This document shows, piece by piece, positions 1 to 46,036 of a DNA stretch of 46,036 nt. The stretch covers positions 1-46,036 of the IMG/VR virus record IMGVR_UViG_3300010396_000018; one strand, 5' to 3'. The stretch comes from a virus. Under the pieces are notes generated by a model. It worked only from the letters and a program-made list of their open reading frames with translations. It did no database searches and was not told the DNA's origin. Numbering within the stretch: the stretch's first letter is position 1; each line of letters opens with the position of its first letter. Position numbers and translations under genes: made by a program.

Positions 1-123
1 TCAGCGCCGCCTCACGCGTGACGTGATGTGCCGAGGCAGCGGCCTTCAACGCGCCGGCAAGCGACACATCCCGAAGCAGCACGTCGAGATTGTATTGACT
101 CATTTCCGCGCCGTGCATCTCGA
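1..123. repeat. terminal direct repeat (left copy)
   Basis: Positions 1-123 are identical, base for base, to 45914-46036. The sequence lies inside a leftward gene that reads continuously when the ends are joined, so the repeat is most simply the overlap left by assembling a circular or circularly permuted molecule. The non-redundant unit is then 45,913 bp. A true packaged terminal redundancy cannot be excluded from sequence alone. Confidence 0.95.
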
Positions 124-3901: not shown

Positions 3902-4560
3902 CAGACCTTCTCCGTCCTTTCGGCGCGGGCCTTCGCCTCGGCGTCTCGGAACGCCGCGCGAGCGCGCGACACGATCGTCCTGTAGTGACGAGCGGATCGC
4001 CCCGACGGACGCTCGGCCAGCGCCGTTTTCCGTTCGTCCTCGGTCAGCGCCAGAACGAAGCCTTCGACCTGCGCGCGCAGCTCCGCTGCGATGACCAAGG
4101 CCTCGGGCGAGTTCTCGTCAACGCGATGATCTTCGTCGTCCTGATACTCGACATGCAGCGCGTGAGTCCTCGCCGCTTCGCGATTCGCGGCCCTGGCCTC
4201 GCCCCTCCCTCGGTTCGGCGTTTTGCGCCAGTACACGCCGACGTCGATCCAGCGCTGGATCTCGTTCATGACGTGGAACCGGGCAAATCCCCAGAAGGCG
4301 CCCCCGCGATCCGCCTCGGCCTCGGCGGGTCGGTACTCCCGCAAGGCCACGAGCAATCCCAGGGCGCCGACTTGCTCAGCTTCGGCCCAGTGCTGCGGCG
4401 TGCGGAGCACGCGACGGACGACGGCCGCGATCCGCGGCTTGTAAGTGTTGAGAATCTCGGCGGTAAGGCGCCTGCGTTCCTTCGGATCGGGGGATCGAAC
4501 GAAGAGAGAAATCAGGTTCTCGGCCTTGGCGCCTTCGGCGCCTTGCGTTAGGCTGGACAT
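3901..4560 (-). CDS. sigma-70 region 2-like protein (first of two sigma-type genes)
   Basis: This is a 219-residue protein from ATG 4560, with AGGAG nine bases upstream. Residues about 30-105 match sigma region 2: a helix leading to AEAEQVGALGLLVALREYRP (core-binding 2.1/2.2) and GAFWGFARFHVMNEIQRWI (2.3/2.4, promoter melting and -10 recognition). The C-terminal helices around ALTEDERKTALAERPSG could form a weak region 4, but the helix-turn-helix is not clear. It may be a divergent sigma factor or a sigma-derived regulator. The coding sequence contains one copy of the GTCACTACAGG element (3979-3989). A second, more complete sigma factor lies at 6951-7496. Confidence 0.75.
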   Translation of the reverse strand: MSSLTQGAEGAKAENLISLFVRSPDPKERRRLTAEILNTYKPRIAAVVRRVLRTPQHWAEAEQVGALGLLVALREYRPAEAEADRGGAFWGFARFHVMNEIQRWIDVGVYWRKTPNRGRGEARAANREAARTHALHVEYQDDEDHRVDENSPEALVIAAELRAQVEGFVLALTEDERKTALAERPSGRSARHYRTIVSRARAAFRDAEAKARAERTEKV

Positions 4561-14022: not shown

Positions 14023-14891
14023 GACGAGACCGGGCGCACCGTCGCCGGCTCACCGACCTCGCACATCCGCTCAATCACCCGGACCAACGACGCCTGAAGC
14101 TCCGCCACGACCGGCGCCAGGCACTTGGCGCCCTTCGTGTAGGCCGCGTTCCGGGCCGCGTTCCGGGCCGCGTTCCAGGCCGCGTTCACGGCCGCGTTCA
14201 CGGCCGCGTTCACGGCCGCGTTCACGGCCGCGTTCACGGCCGCGTTCTCGGCCGCGTTCTCGGCCGCGTTCTCGGCCGCGTTCCGGGCCGCGTTCTCGGC
14301 CGCGTTCTCGGCCGCGTTCTCGGCCGCGTTCTCGGCCGCGTTCTCGGCCGCGTTCTCGGCCGCGTTCCGGGCCGCGTTCTCGGCCGCGTTCTCGGCCGCG
14401 TTCCGGGCCGCGTTCTCGGCCGCGTTCTCGGCCGCGTTCCGGGCCGCGTTCCAGGCCGCGTTCCAGGCCGCGTCGGTGGCGGGGAGCGCGGCGTCCAACG
14501 TGGCGCCGTCGACGATCTCCGGCAGCGTCTCGAGCGCCGCCGCGTGGGACTCGAAGCCCCCGACGCGCAGGAAGGCCGGGGCGTACGTCCGGATCTGCCA
14601 GTCGATCACGAGCCACATCCGACGAAGGAGCACCGCATCGTTCTTCTCGACCCTCGTTCCCATCAACCTAGGGAGCAACGGCCGGAGGATCCGCGTGCGC
14701 GTCTCGTCGTCCGTGATCGAGTCGTTCCAACCCCTCACGACCGCCGCGATGACCGGGCAGACGCACTGAGGGTGATCCGTGTGGCCCTCGCCCGCGAGCC
14801 AGGCCACGGCCTCCATGGCGCAAAGGCCTTCGTCGCGGGAGGTGTGGGATCCGTACTTCAGGGTGATCGAGTCGAGCTTGTCGAGGTGCAT
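14019..14891 (-). CDS. phage protein with 27 tandem XNAA tetrapeptides
   Basis: The 290-residue product starts at ATG 14891, five bases after a GTCACTACAGGG element. The N-terminal domain carries LCAMEAVAWLAGEGHTDH and PQCVCPVIAA, a signature (C-ME-VAWLAGE-H-D-P-C-V-P) I recall from phage and actinobacterial proteins of unknown function. Residues about 142-249 are 27 tetrapeptides of the form X-N-A-A, where X is Glu, Arg, Val or Trp. A C-terminal domain (CLAPVVAELQASLVRVIERM) follows. The repeats should form one long helix or solenoid with charged and hydrophobic faces. It is the first gene of the leftward early operon. The open frame continues upstream of 14891, but that part runs through the operator. 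Confidence 0.85.
   Translation of the reverse strand: MHLDKLDSITLKYGSHTSRDEGLCAMEAVAWLAGEGHTDHPQCVCPVIAAVVRGWNDSITDDETRTRILRPLLPRLMGTRVEKNDAVLLRRMWLVIDWQIRTYAPAFLRVGGFESHAAALETLPEIVDGATLDAALPATDAAWNAAWNAARNAAENAAENAARNAAENAAENAARNAAENAAENAAENAAENAAENAAENAARNAAENAAENAAENAAVNAAVNAAVNAAVNAAVNAAWNAARNAARNAAYTKGAKCLAPVVAELQASLVRVIERMCEVGEPATVRPVSS
14146..14469. repeat. 27 x 12-bp tandem minisatellite inside the XNAA gene
   Basis: The array is 324 bases of perfect 12-mers (GCGTTCNNGGCC on the plus strand) with variation only in the two bases that set the first residue of each tetrapeptide. Variants are clustered: five Val units in a row, runs of Glu units broken by single Arg units, and Trp/Arg units at the edges. 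Unit length keeps the frame, so copy number can change freely by slippage. Confidence 0.97.
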
Positions 14892-21773: not shown

Positions 21774-23186
21774 ATGGGAGCAGCCTCGAAACGAGCCAAG
21801 CGGATTCGGCAAGCTGCCGAATTCGATATGAAGAGGCTCGAAGCGCGCCTTCGGATGCCGCGCGACGGACGCACGGCGCTCGACGCGTGGTCTCTCGAGC
21901 AGATCTTCATCGCGCGCGACGAGCAAATGCTTGGTCAATTCGTGCTCCCGTCACGAATGGCCGAGATGATGCGCACGGACGATGCCCTTGCCGTCGCGCA
22001 CTGGAACCGGCTCGCCCCCCAGCGGGCGATCCCGGTCAAGATCGAATCCGCGGGCGGCGCTCGGGGGGACTCGATCGCAAACGAGGCCGACGCGCTCTTT
22101 GGTCCGAACGGAGTGGGCATTCACGCCGATACGCTCGCAGATATTCACGCGTGTCTCGTCGATCACGGCGTCGCGTTTGGGTGCATCGACGCGACCCCGC
22201 GCGAGGACGGCTCCCGGGTCGACATGGAGCTTCGGTACTGGCCCATCGAATACGTTCGGTGGGATCCAGTCTTCCGACTTTTCAAAGCCCGGGCGGATCC
22301 GAACACGGTGCAGCCAGGCGACCTGCCGCAAACGGACCTGAACCCCGGCGGCTTCGATTCGTCGGGCGTCGAGTACGGCTTCGTCGGCGGCTTCTGGATC
22401 CCGGTCGTCCACGGTGACGGCCGTTGGGTCATTTTCAAGAAACACGACCTCGAGCCGTTCCGGAAAGAAGCCGCGATCCTTCCGGCGGCCCTCGTGTGGG
22501 CTCGACACGCGTTCGGGAACCGAGACTGGGCCAAAGGCTCGAAGGCTCACGGCTCCGCGAAAGTCGTGGGCGAGCTCCCGCAAGGGGTGCCGCTGCAGAA
22601 CGGCGACGGCAGTCTTTCGAACGAAGCGGCGGCATTCGTCGAGCTCTTGCGCTCGATCGCGACCGAGGATTCGCCCGCGGGCATTCGCCCCGCCGGATCG
22701 AAGACTGAGTTCCTGACGAACAACTCCACGGCGTGGCAGGTCTGGCAACAACTCGTCATGAACGCGGAGCGAGCCGCAGCCAGGATTTACCTGGGAACCG
22801 ACGGGACCCTAGGAACGCAGGCCAACGCGCCGGGCGTGGACGTCGATGCGCTCTTCGGCGTAGCGGCGACTCGCGTGAGCGGTGACCTCGAGTGCCTCCA
22901 GCGCGGGATCGACACGGGGTTGATCGAGCCCTGGACCGCGATCAACTTCGGCGACTCCCGATTGGCGCCCAAGCGAAAGTACCTGATCCCGAACAAGGAT
23001 CAGCAAGCGGTCGACGACGACTTTGCAAAGCGCAATGACGCGTTCATGAAGGCGCTCGTCGATGCGAAGCAGGCCGGGATCCAGCTGAATCCCGTCTACA
23101 TCGCCGAACTTGCGACGAAGTACCGCGTTCTCGTTCCGGCCATCGACGCCATGGCGCCAGCGACGGCGCCGGCACCCTCGAAATGA
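21774..23186 (+). CDS. portal protein (Mu gp29-like)
   Basis: The 470-residue protein starts at ATG 21774, 12 bases after the terminase stop, and overlaps the next gene as ATGA. It has the layout of DUF935-type portals: an N-terminal helical start (DAWSLEQIFIARDEQMLG), a mixed core with PIEYVRWDPVFRLFK and VEYGFVGGFWIPVVHG, and a helical stem/crown near AWQVWQQLVMNAERAAARIYLG. The last residues are Ala/Pro-rich. Twelve copies would form the DNA gate and the docking site for the terminase. Position between terminase and protease strengthens the call. Confidence 0.85.
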   Translation: MGAASKRAKRIRQAAEFDMKRLEARLRMPRDGRTALDAWSLEQIFIARDEQMLGQFVLPSRMAEMMRTDDALAVAHWNRLAPQRAIPVKIESAGGARGDSIANEADALFGPNGVGIHADTLADIHACLVDHGVAFGCIDATPREDGSRVDMELRYWPIEYVRWDPVFRLFKARADPNTVQPGDLPQTDLNPGGFDSSGVEYGFVGGFWIPVVHGDGRWVIFKKHDLEPFRKEAAILPAALVWARHAFGNRDWAKGSKAHGSAKVVGELPQGVPLQNGDGSLSNEAAAFVELLRSIATEDSPAGIRPAGSKTEFLTNNSTAWQVWQQLVMNAERAAARIYLGTDGTLGTQANAPGVDVDALFGVAATRVSGDLECLQRGIDTGLIEPWTAINFGDSRLAPKRKYLIPNKDQQAVDDDFAKRNDAFMKALVDAKQAGIQLNPVYIAELATKYRVLVPAIDAMAPATAPAPSK

Positions 23187-43213: not shown

Positions 43214-43597
43214 TCAAAGGCACGTGCCCGTGGCTGTGCTGTACTGCTCCGTTACGACGCACGGCATCCCCCGAGGGCAGGTCGCGCGCTTCAGCCCCTG
43301 AGAGTCGGCCGTGCAGGAGCCACCGATCCACGTGATCCCGGGGGCGACGATGGTCGTGAGCTCGTCGCTGGACAGGACAACGGACGGCGGGTCCCCGAAG
43401 CACCCCTCGTACGCCCGGCGTTCAGCCGGCACGTAGCAGAGCACCGGACGGTAACCGCCGTCGGTCGGGATCTCGGGCAGGCCCTCGAGGGCCCCGGCGT
43501 CCGGGGCGTCCTCGGAGCCGGCCGACGACGTCGGGGCGATGCATCCGACCGAGAAGAGGGCAAGGGCGAGGAGAGCGAGAGCAGCGAAGAGCTTCAT
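43214..43597 (-). CDS. Cys-rich lipoprotein (moron) next to attP
   Basis: The 127-residue protein starts at ATG 43597, chosen for its signal peptide MKLFAALALLALALFSVGC; C19 is lipidated. The mature start is Ser/Asp/Gly-rich, then six Cys follow in VLCYV, EGCFGDP, GGSCTAD, ATCPRG, MPCVV and GTCL, probably three disulfides. No ribosome site is clear, but GTGGAC inverted repeats and a 12-bp palindrome lie just upstream (43600-43626). A surface lipoprotein expressed from the prophage, for exclusion or host conversion, is likely. Confidence 0.8.
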   Translation of the reverse strand: MKLFAALALLALALFSVGCIAPTSSAGSEDAPDAGALEGLPEIPTDGGYRPVLCYVPAERRAYEGCFGDPPSVVLSSDELTTIVAPGITWIGGSCTADSQGLKRATCPRGMPCVVTEQYSTATGTCL

Positions 43598-43648: not shown

Positions 43649-43838
43649 GGGATACGATTCGGGATACGCTACCACCCGAACCTTCGTGCGAACGGAGGGA
43701 GTTGAACCCTCACGAGAGTTACCTCGCCAGAACCTGAATCTCCGAACAAGCATCGAAACCCTCGCTTTTCTCGGTGCTTTTGGGGTCTGAAGTGCCCAGC
43801 CGGGGCCGCTCAGGGCCCCCTTCCGGGATACGTATCCC
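43649..43838. other. attP region with GGGATACG arm-type sites
   Basis: GGGATACG occurs at 43649-43656 and 43661-43668 (12 bases apart) on one side, and as the palindrome GGGATACGTATCCC at 43825-43838 on the other. They flank the tRNA-like core at 43687-43741 and lie between the integrase stop (43847) and the lipoprotein gene. Short repeated sites on both sides of a tRNA-derived core are the usual layout of arm-binding sites for a tyrosine integrase. No gene is seen in 43598-43846. Confidence 0.75.
43687..43741 (-). other. attP core: 3' half of a tRNA-Leu(CAG) gene
   Basis: Read leftward from 43741, the sequence gives the anticodon loop TTCAGGT (anticodon CAG, Leu), the 3' stem, a long variable arm with CGAG/CTCG pairing around GTAACT, the T arm GAGGG-TTCAACT-CCCTC, and the acceptor strand CGTTCGC plus A. 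The 5' half (acceptor GCGAACG, D arm) is missing upstream. A tRNA fragment from the anticodon to the 3' end next to an integrase gene is the mark of a phage that integrates in that tRNA gene and restores its end. Confidence 0.85.
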
Positions 43839-43846
43839 GATCGGGA

Positions 43847-44908
43847 TCACACCCTCCCCCGCCGCCCGATGACCGCCCGCGCCGCATCCTCGCCCGTGGT
43901 GACGTATCGCGCCGTCGTGGACAGGTGCTTGTGCCCGACCAGGAACATGACGCCCGTCAGGGGCGCGCCGCTGTTCGCATCGTGCGTGATGCGCGAGTGC
44001 TTGAAGTCGTACACGCCGATGTTCCGGTCACTCAACCCGGCCTCACGCACCGCGGCAGCGAGCGAGAAGCGGAGCGAGGCCTCGTCGGCGTCGAAGAGCT
44101 TCCCCGCGCCTGACTTGGGGAAGACGAGGTCCAGGGCCCTCGTTGCGGCTGGCGAGATGGGGATCCGGCGCTCGAAGCCCTCCTTGTCAATCTCGCGCGA
44201 GATGAACAGGGTCTTCGCGCCACGCTGGTAGTGCGTGGGCGCCTCGAGAGCGAGGACCGTAATCGGTCGCAGGCCGGTCTCCCACAGCACGACAAACAGC
44301 GGTCGGACCCAAGCCCCCGTGCGACGCGAGCGCTCGGGCATGGCCGCAAGGATCTTCTTCGCCTCGCGCGGCGTGATCAGGGTCGCCTTCGGCTTGCGCG
44401 CGTTCTTCGACCGAACCCCGGCGTGTCCATGCTTCGGCAAGCGCGGGATCTCGTCGATCGTCACGCCGCGGGTCGAAAGCCACTCGCGGAACTGACGGAG
44501 CGCTGAGAGCTCCTTACGCAACGTGCTGCGGGTCACGCATTGGATGCGGTCGGCGACGAAATCTGAGTAACTAAGCTTCGTGAAGCGATCGAGCGAACGA
44601 AAGAACGGGATGAATTGCGCTCGGAAATAGTCTTCCACCGTGCCCGCGGTCCCTGCTTTGTGTGTCGCCGCGTAGTGCAGCAAGAACGCGGCGACGTGTT
44701 CCTTCAGGTTCCCTGCTACCGGGGCGAGGTCCGCCTTTCGTCCGCTGACGGTTTCGGCGTAGATGCGCGCGGCTTCCGCTCCAGCCGCTTCACGATCGCT
44801 GCAACCCGTGGATCGGAAATGTCGGACGCCCTTCCACCGGAACCGGACCGCGTAGATCGTGCGCCCTGGGAGGAGAACGAGTTTCCAGCCTTCTGCTTGT
44901 CGCGCCAT
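43847..44908 (-). CDS. int: tyrosine-family integrase
   Basis: The 353-residue protein starts at ATG 44908, inside the excisionase frame. An N-terminal arm-binding part (WKLVLLPGRTIYAVRFRWK) is followed by a core-binding SAM-like domain (TVEDYFRAQFIPFFRSLDRF) and the catalytic domain: ETGLRPITVLALE (Arg I), FERRIPIS (beta region), VYDFKHSRITHDA, FLVGHKHLSTTARYV (box with His and the nucleophile Tyr). In box II, Tyr and Lys stand where His and Arg are usual. It catalyses recombination of attP (just downstream) with the host tRNA-Leu gene. Confidence 0.93.
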   Translation of the reverse strand: MARQAEGWKLVLLPGRTIYAVRFRWKGVRHFRSTGCSDREAAGAEAARIYAETVSGRKADLAPVAGNLKEHVAAFLLHYAATHKAGTAGTVEDYFRAQFIPFFRSLDRFTKLSYSDFVADRIQCVTRSTLRKELSALRQFREWLSTRGVTIDEIPRLPKHGHAGVRSKNARKPKATLITPREAKKILAAMPERSRRTGAWVRPLFVVLWETGLRPITVLALEAPTHYQRGAKTLFISREIDKEGFERRIPISPAATRALDLVFPKSGAGKLFDADEASLRFSLAAAVREAGLSDRNIGVYDFKHSRITHDANSGAPLTGVMFLVGHKHLSTTARYVTTGEDAARAVIGRRGRV

Positions 44909-45066
44909 CGGATCAGGTCCGCCCGATCGTAGCGCCGGAGCGTCCCGACCTCAATCGCCGGCACGTGCGGCCTCACCCAGCGCTTGAACGAGGTGAGGGA
45001 CAGGTTCAGAAACGCCGCCGCTTGACGGGGCGTGAGGGGCGTGTCCGGGTCGGGGGGCAGGGTCAT
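44716..45066 (-). CDS. xis: excisionase / recombination directionality factor-like
   Basis: The 116-residue protein starts at ATG 45066 (ATGA overlap). Residues 10-60 are a MerR/excisionase-type winged helix: LTPRQAAAFLNLSLTSFKRW, VPAIEVGTLRRYDRADLIRW. A polar C-terminal tail (DISDPRVAAIVKRLERKPR) follows. The gene overlaps the integrase by 193 bases in another frame. It should bend attachment DNA and favour excision, or act as a small regulator. Confidence 0.75.
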   Translation of the reverse strand: MTLPPDPDTPLTPRQAAAFLNLSLTSFKRWVRPHVPAIEVGTLRRYDRADLIRWRDKQKAGNSFSSQGARSTRSGSGGRASDISDPRVAAIVKRLERKPRASTPKPSADERRTSPR

Positions 45067-45437: not shown

Positions 45438-45869
45438 GCCTGCCCCTTTCACATCGAAGACGAAAGAAAGCCCTTGCCTCGCCGCGCCATGCCTTGCCAT
45501 GCCCAGCTGTGCCATGCCCGGCCGCGATTTAGTGGATTGGGTTTGAGGTCATCTCGCCCAATCCGTCCTTGCCTTGCCCTGCCTTGCCCTGCCTTGCCGA
45601 GACGCGCCCAGCCTCGCCACGCCATGCCTCGATTAGTGGATTGGGTTTGAAATCATCTCGCCCAATCCGTCCTTGCCTCGCCTTGCCCTGCCACGCCGCG
45701 CCGAGACGCGCCCAGCCCTGCCACGCCGCGCCAGGCCCAGCCCCGCCTGGCCTGGCCTGGCCTTGCCCCGCCGCGGTCAGTGGATTGGGTTTGAAGTCAT
45801 CTCGCCCAATCCGTCCTTGCCTTGCCGTGCCTCGCCCTGCCATGCCAAGCCGAGCCACGCCTCGCTACG
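45438..45869. repeat. 432-base gap of CCTTGCC low-complexity DNA with three 43-bp repeats
   Basis: No gene is supported. The DNA is built of irregular pentamers and hexamers such as CTTGCC, CTGCC, ACGCC and ATGCC. Embedded are three near-identical 43-bp units at 45531-45573, 45635-45677 and 45779-45821, which differ only at two bases in the loop. Each carries GGATTGGG and CCCAATCC separated by 15 bases, so each can form an 8-bp hairpin, and each ends CGTCCTTGCC. The last unit starts 91 bases from the stop of the joint-spanning gene. A regulatory or recombination role is possible. Confidence 0.85.
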
Positions 45870-46036
45870 TTACACCTTCTTCGGCAGCATCGGCGCCGGC
45901 GGCTTCCCGGACGTCAGCGCCGCCTCACGCGTGACGTGATGTGCCGAGGCAGCGGCCTTCAACGCGCCGGCAAGCGACACATCCCGAAGCAGCACGTCGA
46001 GATTGTATTGACTCATTTCCGCGCCGTGCATCTCGA
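45870..46036 (-). CDS. winged-helix-like protein, C-terminal part at the right contig end
   Basis: This is the right-end portion of the gene whose start is at 433. It reads through the duplicated 123 bases (45914-46036) and ends LTSGKPPAPMLPKKV with TAA at 45870-45872. The complete protein has 158 residues once the ends are joined. The C-terminal half, from MHGAEMSQYNLDVLLRD on, is helical. Confidence 0.75.
   Translation of the reverse strand, partial: EMHGAEMSQYNLDVLLRDVSLAGALKAAASAHHVTREAALTSGKPPAPMLPKKV
45914..46036. repeat. terminal direct repeat (right copy)
   Basis: Identical to positions 1-123; see the left copy. Removing one copy leaves a closed circle of 45,913 bp with an intact gene across the joint. 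Confidence 0.95.

Follow-up and report, generated by a model that had tools for sequence, protein, structure and literature searches.

Half of a tRNA-Leu(CAG) gene as the probable attachment core of a metagenomic phage, pointing to myxobacterial hosts

Why does a phage genome carry the 3' half of a leucine tRNA gene beside its integrase, and what does this fragment say about the host? We addressed this question in a window that is a full IMG/VR virus record of 46,036 bases. An earlier note, made from the sequence alone, had read the fragment as the attP core and had predicted a host tRNA-Leu gene with acceptor GCGAACG as the integration site. Its interpretation of the segment, of the role of this segment and of the kind of host gene is supported by the results described below.

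The half gene and its neighborhood

The window begins and ends with a direct repeat, which indicates that the genome is circular or its assembly complete. It encodes a large terminase, a tape measure protein and a family A DNA polymerase, together with a weakly matched major head protein and tail spike. Two repeated regions lie elsewhere in the window: a 12-bp unit (GGCCGCGTTCTC) present in 27.7 tandem copies with 94% matches (14142-14473), near the start of a 999-aa AAA/primase-helicase-like ORF, and, between the integrase/HTH genes and the contig end, three diverged copies of a 104-144-nt unit with AGTGGATTGGGTTTGA..TCATCTCGCCCAATCCGTCC among 5-bp low-complexity repeats (45467-45858). The main features are as follows.

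1..123, no strand: terminal direct repeat of 123 bp, identical to 45914-46036
43687..43741, minus strand: very probable attP core, the 3' 55 nt of a tRNA-Leu(CAG) gene (AGATTCAGGTTCTGGCGAGGTAACTCTCGTGAGGGTTCAACTCCCTCCGTTCGCA), based on sequence, relatives and host tRNA
43687, minus strand: discriminator A
43688..43694, minus strand: 3' acceptor strand CGTTCGC, pairing with host GCGAACG
43732..43738, minus strand: anticodon loop TTCAGGT, predicted 7-bp overlap, with the flanking AGA/TCT of the anticodon stem as predicted core-type integrase half-sites
43847..44908, minus strand: tyrosine recombinase integrase, 353 aa (PF00589, 3.1e-10, 40.5 bits; phrog_1 integrase, 1.4e-28)
44716..45066, minus strand: HTH_17/excisionase-type small DNA-binding protein, overlapping the integrase start (PF12728, 2.4e-6)

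The integrase displays the R...K...HxxR...H...Y pattern in its PF00589 domain, and its catalytic residues (R214, K242, H304, R307, H326 and Y335) are invariant in alignment A1 of its relatives. The HTH_17 protein, which also matches phrog_66 (excisionase and transcriptional regulator, 6.3e-6), is a candidate directionality factor. The integrase gene ends upstream of the core on the same strand, and its frame does not cross the core. With the stop codon at 43847-43849 and the core edge at 43741, 105 bases separate the two, within one base of the 106 counted in the earlier note.

Read 5' to 3' on the minus strand, the segment comprises the last 3 nt of the 5' anticodon stem (AGA), the anticodon loop with its CAG, the 3' anticodon stem (TCTGG), a 15-nt variable arm (CGAGGTAACTCTCGT), a perfect T stem-loop (GAGGG TTCAACT CCCTC), the 3' acceptor strand and the discriminator. 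It is a tRNA half of class II type in which CCA is not encoded. Identity to tRNA-Leu(CAG) starts with the AGA of the anticodon stem and extends as far as the discriminator. Its 5' limit, position 43741, is the base at which identity to the myxobacterial tRNA described below ends (AGA is preceded by cgg in the window and by acc in the host), 3 nt 5' of the anticodon loop. At the 3' end, phage and host tRNA have one extra C in common (43686), and the core length could be 56 nt if this base is counted.

That the segment is the 3' part of a tRNA gene with its 5' half missing was evident on direct reading. ARAGORN detected no complete tRNA in the 46,036-nt window, and neither did Rfam at gathering score; the best sub-threshold Rfam match over the core is a weak tRNA-like alignment of 19.9 bits, as expected because the core is half a gene. 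A 52-mer of the core is found once in the window, against 0.00 copies expected with up to 3 mismatches. This single copy and its exact recurrence in two other phages argue against a chance match.

Both flanks of the core hold additional elements. On the phage side, 20-45 nt 5' of the core (43750-43785, minus strand), a GGGTTYCGA-like motif and a CACCGAGAAAARCGA motif recur near the core of one relative (L005) and possibly form an accessory-factor or excisionase site. On the other side, a gene for a putative lipoprotein of 127 aa (MKLFAALALLALALFSVGC...; 43214-43597, minus strand) starts 89 nt 3' of the core, co-directional with the tRNA. The protein has no Pfam match and is not evidently kept in the relatives L002 or L003. 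In a lysogen, its gene would sit directly downstream of the rebuilt tRNA-Leu and might use the host tRNA promoter.

Conservation of the core, flanking repeats and integrated relatives

Among 2.9 million viral contigs, the exact 52-base pattern occurs in two copies, in IMGVR_UViG_3300047497_000036 (L002) and IMGVR_UViG_3300043778_000073 (L003/L004). The full 55 nt are identical in the window, L002 and L003, and all three copies lie beside related integrases. The L002 and L003 integrases are 70-71% identical to that of the window, and their core copies are located in the same place, downstream of the integrase gene. The core flanks are largely diverged among the three phages. L002 is also collinear with the window over the structural module (terminase 71%, portal 70%, head protein 72%). 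An ARAGORN tRNA-Leu call in L002 was rejected as a real gene, its acceptor and D arm being mispaired.

Repeats with an ATCCC motif flank the core and are putative arm-type sites of the integrase, of the kind expected in a lambda-type heterobivalent attP, judging from their sequence and spacing:

43649..43666, minus strand: putative arm-type integrase sites on the 3' side, TATCCC GAATCG TATCCC, spacing 12 bp
43825..43847, minus strand: putative arm-type sites on the 5' side (ATCCCGATCGGGATACGTATCCC), one copy degenerate in the window

Apart from the 3'-side pair, no two ATCCC copies in the window are closely spaced, and a pair is found at the matching offset in L002, L004 and a further viral locus, L116. 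In relatives, the sites corresponding to those on the 5' side form 9-bp-spaced pairs, at a distance of about 101 nt from the loop. Counted from the loop start, L002, L004 and, within 2 nt, L116 share a 9-bp-spaced pair at about -101 and a 12-bp-spaced pair at about +71. The 9-bp pair at about -101 is also present in L005 and in the bacterial genome G129; in these two, 12-bp pairs made of other repeat sequences are located at +112 to +119 on the 3' side. Shuffled flanks reproduce the arm-repeat geometry at a rate of at most 0.005. In the window, where no full set was found, both copies on the 3' side and one clear copy on the 5' side are retained, three out of four.

Integrated relatives were observed in two bacterial genomes of one genus, G128 and G129. 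On contig 33 of G129, an integrase 57% identical to that of the window lies beside a whole tRNA-Leu(GAG) gene (C33:14561-14642), and a second copy of the 3' half of this tRNA is found 7.4 kb from the integrase and whole gene, at 21961-22012. Contig 61 of G128 has a whole-plus-half tRNA pattern too, with 7.0 kb between the two. In these relatives, identity starts one base before the loop TTGAGGT. The G129 layout shows the configuration predicted for the window phage, with a rebuilt gene at one end and a displaced half at the other. The G129 element (L103, G129:C33, 2560-10020, 7.4 kb) carries a 1220-aa weak STAND/NACHT-like NTPase and an AbiEii-family nucleotidyltransferase, and looks like a mobile defence island sharing the integration system of the phages.

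Fragments of tRNA genes are common in prokaryotes, and we may ask whether the tRNA half is a passive relic of imprecise excision or transduction that happens to lie beside an integrase. That no lysogen of the window phage has been seen would fit such a relic. However, the 55 nt are unchanged in three phages whose integrases differ by about 29%, arm-like repeats lie on both sides of the core, related integrases repeatedly adjoin the equivalent half of tRNA-Leu(GAG) or (CAG), and an integrated relative uses the equivalent half. We thus consider a relic very unlikely. The segment could also act as a functional phage RNA, such as a tRNA mimic or a tRNA-derived decoy, rather than as an attachment site. 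The poor full-length tRNA-Leu called in L002, with its mispaired 5' part, and the tRNA-Sec-like character of the weak 19.9-bit Rfam alignment over the window copy could be taken this way; but conservation is lacking in the 5' part, the window and L004 copies give no ARAGORN call, and the sequence stops at the host gene boundary, as it should in an attP. A functional RNA is the least probable of the readings weighed here.

Very probably, then, positions 43687-43741 are the attP core of a temperate phage, which the integrase recombines with a myxobacterial tRNA-Leu(CAG) gene across the anticodon loop. The role proposed in the earlier note is supported by the adjoining integrase, the putative arm-type repeats on the flanks, the conservation in two relatives and the integrated relative. 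By analogy with the class (PMC8371274), the 7-bp strand-exchange (overlap) region would be the loop TTCAGGT. The host gene would keep its promoter and 5' half and gain the equivalent phage 3' half; as loop, 3' stem, variable arm, T arm and acceptor strand would all come from the phage, the tRNA would stay intact. The displaced host 3' half would remain as a fragment at the other, integrase-proximal end of the prophage. In the resulting junctions, attL would join the 5' half GCGAACGTGGCGGAA...CACC to the window core and its 3' flank, and attR would join the integrase-side flank to the core and host DNA. Neither attL nor attR of the window phage itself was seen, and we infer its integration by this tRNA-Leu mechanism.

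Candidate host tRNA genes and their occupants

Comparison with known phages gave little information on the host. A near-DNA search with the window found no match; the best match of the integrase has 33% identity and is uninformative, and the terminase has diffuse matches (Gordonia, Vibrio and Microbacterium phages) without host signal. The portal is more specific: a comparison with 50,697 phage records matched Myxococcus phage Mx4 (two records) and no other phage.

The earlier note had proposed a search for bacterial tRNA-Leu genes with the same 55 bases. No exact copy was found in a scan of the genomes of 84,980 species with 52 nt, and this part of the expectation failed; a near copy does exist. 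A relaxed pattern retrieved 30 genome contigs, mostly from Bifidobacteriaceae and with four from Deltaproteobacteria/Myxococcales metagenome-assembled genomes (MAGs). The nearest chromosomal tRNA-Leu(CAG), in the Myxococcales MAG BP9.bin63 (G001; GCGAACGTGGCGGAATTGGCAGACGCACC + AGATTCAGGTTCTGGCGGGGTAACTCCCG...), is identical to the core at 53/55 positions. The A to G and T to C differences affect the two partners of a single variable-stem pair, so that pairing is preserved. The MAG palsa_1150 (G002) has five mismatches to the core. Searches of the order (184 genomes) and of the phylum (379 genomes) found nothing nearer than BP9.bin63, and a phylum-wide pattern with variable-arm positions left free matched G001 alone. 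The tRNA genes of BP9.bin63 and palsa_1150 have exactly the GCGAACG...CGTTCGC acceptor predicted in the earlier note, with a CCAGA/TCTGG anticodon stem. Joining the 5' half of the BP9.bin63 gene to the 55 nt of the window yields a perfect ARAGORN tRNA-Leu(CAG), with 7/7 acceptor and 5/5 anticodon stem pairs; in this recombinant-tRNA test, the host/phage chimera remains a good tRNA.

These results point to myxobacteria of the order of BP9.bin63 and palsa_1150 as hosts, a proposal based on sequence comparison. In agreement with this, G128 and G129, which belong to the same order as G001, contain structural modules collinear with that of the window. In GTDB terms this order is probably Polyangiales. 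Since the nearest tRNA matches at 53/55 and the differences amount to one compensated variable-stem pair, the exact host species is most likely absent from the collections.

Could the same attP serve a host outside the myxobacteria, for instance in the Bifidobacteriaceae or another lineage with a GCGAACG tRNA-Leu? Most relaxed-pattern matches are indeed Bifidobacteriaceae tRNA-Leu(CAG) genes with the same acceptor and partly the same T arm. Yet these genes have at least 9 mismatches over 52 positions, some of them in the anticodon stem, whereas the Myxococcales MAG has 2; genomes of the order of this MAG contain related structural modules and integrases, and the portal matches Mx4 only. We rejected the Bifidobacteriaceae as hosts on the mismatch count, and view a non-myxobacterial host in general as highly improbable.

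The tRNA-Leu(CAG) genes of G001 and G002 were themselves considered as empty host sites and discarded, each being joined to an integrase, with a 5'-half fragment at the other end in G001. BP9.bin63 is a low-coverage MAG whose tRNA-Leu(CAG) is occupied by a different element. In both MAGs the tRNA gene is preceded by an integrase 33-37% identical to that of the window, and the integrase frame enters the tRNA (in G002, the overlap lies at L065 2340-4080). The G001 element has a 42-bp repeat (CACGCGAACG...CAGATTCAGGT) at both ends: at the left end, the 5'-half fragment (L064:4845-4886) adjoins a dihydroorotase-like gene, and at the right end lies the whole tRNA. By its sequence, this element carries the 5' half and would cross over in the same tRNA-Leu(CAG) loop with a handedness opposite to that of the window. 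When its attP is joined, the integrase frame remains open with a different C-terminus (522 vs 484 residues). Integration likewise changes the integrase C-terminus of Myxococcus phage Mx8 (PMC6070905), which the G001 and G002 elements resemble in this respect. Elements with 5' fragments are an uncommon but known class, as Islander lists 159 such islands against 3760 with 3' fragments (PMC4383910).

The integrase family and known systems

An integrase-profile search of the viral contigs returned 14 loci, 13 of them (all except L124) beside a whole gene or 3' half of tRNA-Leu(CAG/GAG); the 14 include duplicates, L112/L113 being L003/L002 again and L114/L115 a near-identical pair. On a maximum-likelihood tree, the CAG/GAG label requires at least 3 changes. 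The position of the integrase gene varies too. The window, L002 and L003 form a clade (100/99 support) in which the gene is 5' of the core and co-directional; G129 and the other viral relatives have it on the 3' side, facing the tRNA. In L116 (CAG) it is also on the 3' side, at a distance of about 1.6 kb. Both arrangements occur among more distant chromosomal integrases (33-40% identity). These few genomes suggest that the integrase gene switched from one side of attP to the other, with no change in the internal geometry of the site. In another locus, L118 (IMGVR_UViG_3300046824_000128, about 4240-4300), a tRNA-Leu(GAG) 3' half appears inside the 3' end of the integrase frame, which is a candidate for a frame extending across attP.

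We lean slightly towards a broader scenario. The integrase lineage may be a specialist of leucine-tRNA anticodon loops in myxobacterial hosts that switched several times between CAG and GAG. In the window clade, its gene would have moved from the 3' side to the 5' side without any change in arm-repeat spacing (9-bp pair 5', 12-bp pair 3'). Mirror-image 5'-half elements would use the same tRNA-Leu(CAG) loop as well; their integrase frame runs into the tRNA, and integration would swap the integrase C-terminus as in Mx8. Such a family would amount to a small experiment of nature, in which integrases take up a new target isoacceptor and an integrase gene changes sides of attP. Furthermore, a host group can be assigned to an otherwise orphan metagenomic phage lineage, myxobacteria having very few sequenced phages, and the integrase with its attP could become an integration tool for these bacteria.

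The principle is textbook, and the window phage adds a well-supported case of a mechanism already known. Archaeal integrases of the pTN3 type also recombine around the tRNA anticodon region (PMC8371274). Myxococcus phage Mx8 (and Mx9) is a temperate myxobacterial phage with its integrase beside attP, as is proposed for the window phage (PMC6070905); however, the Mx8 attP lies inside the integrase gene, the 3' end of which is altered by integration, whereas the window gene ends before the core. The tRNA-dependent lysogeny described in other phages needs a phage-encoded complete tRNA (PMC10865867), and the window encodes none. The Boilgate-type mycobacteriophage attP in tRNA-Lys(TTT) involves another tRNA and another host phylum, but is otherwise similar: its common core overlaps the 3' half of the host tRNA, some differences between the two being compatible with folding, the core lies between arm-type sites, and the host tRNA is rebuilt at attL (PMC10865867). 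Finally, Islander counts 2083 islands of the anticodon-centred type, and 3760 islands that carry a 3' tDNA fragment (PMC4383910). Like the anticodon-centred (subsite A) attP sites (Williams 2002; Islander, PMC4383910), the window has the 3' tRNA half in the element, identity from the anticodon stem and an adjacent integrase gene; it shows no essential difference from these sites, here in what would be a poorly sampled lineage of myxobacterial phages.
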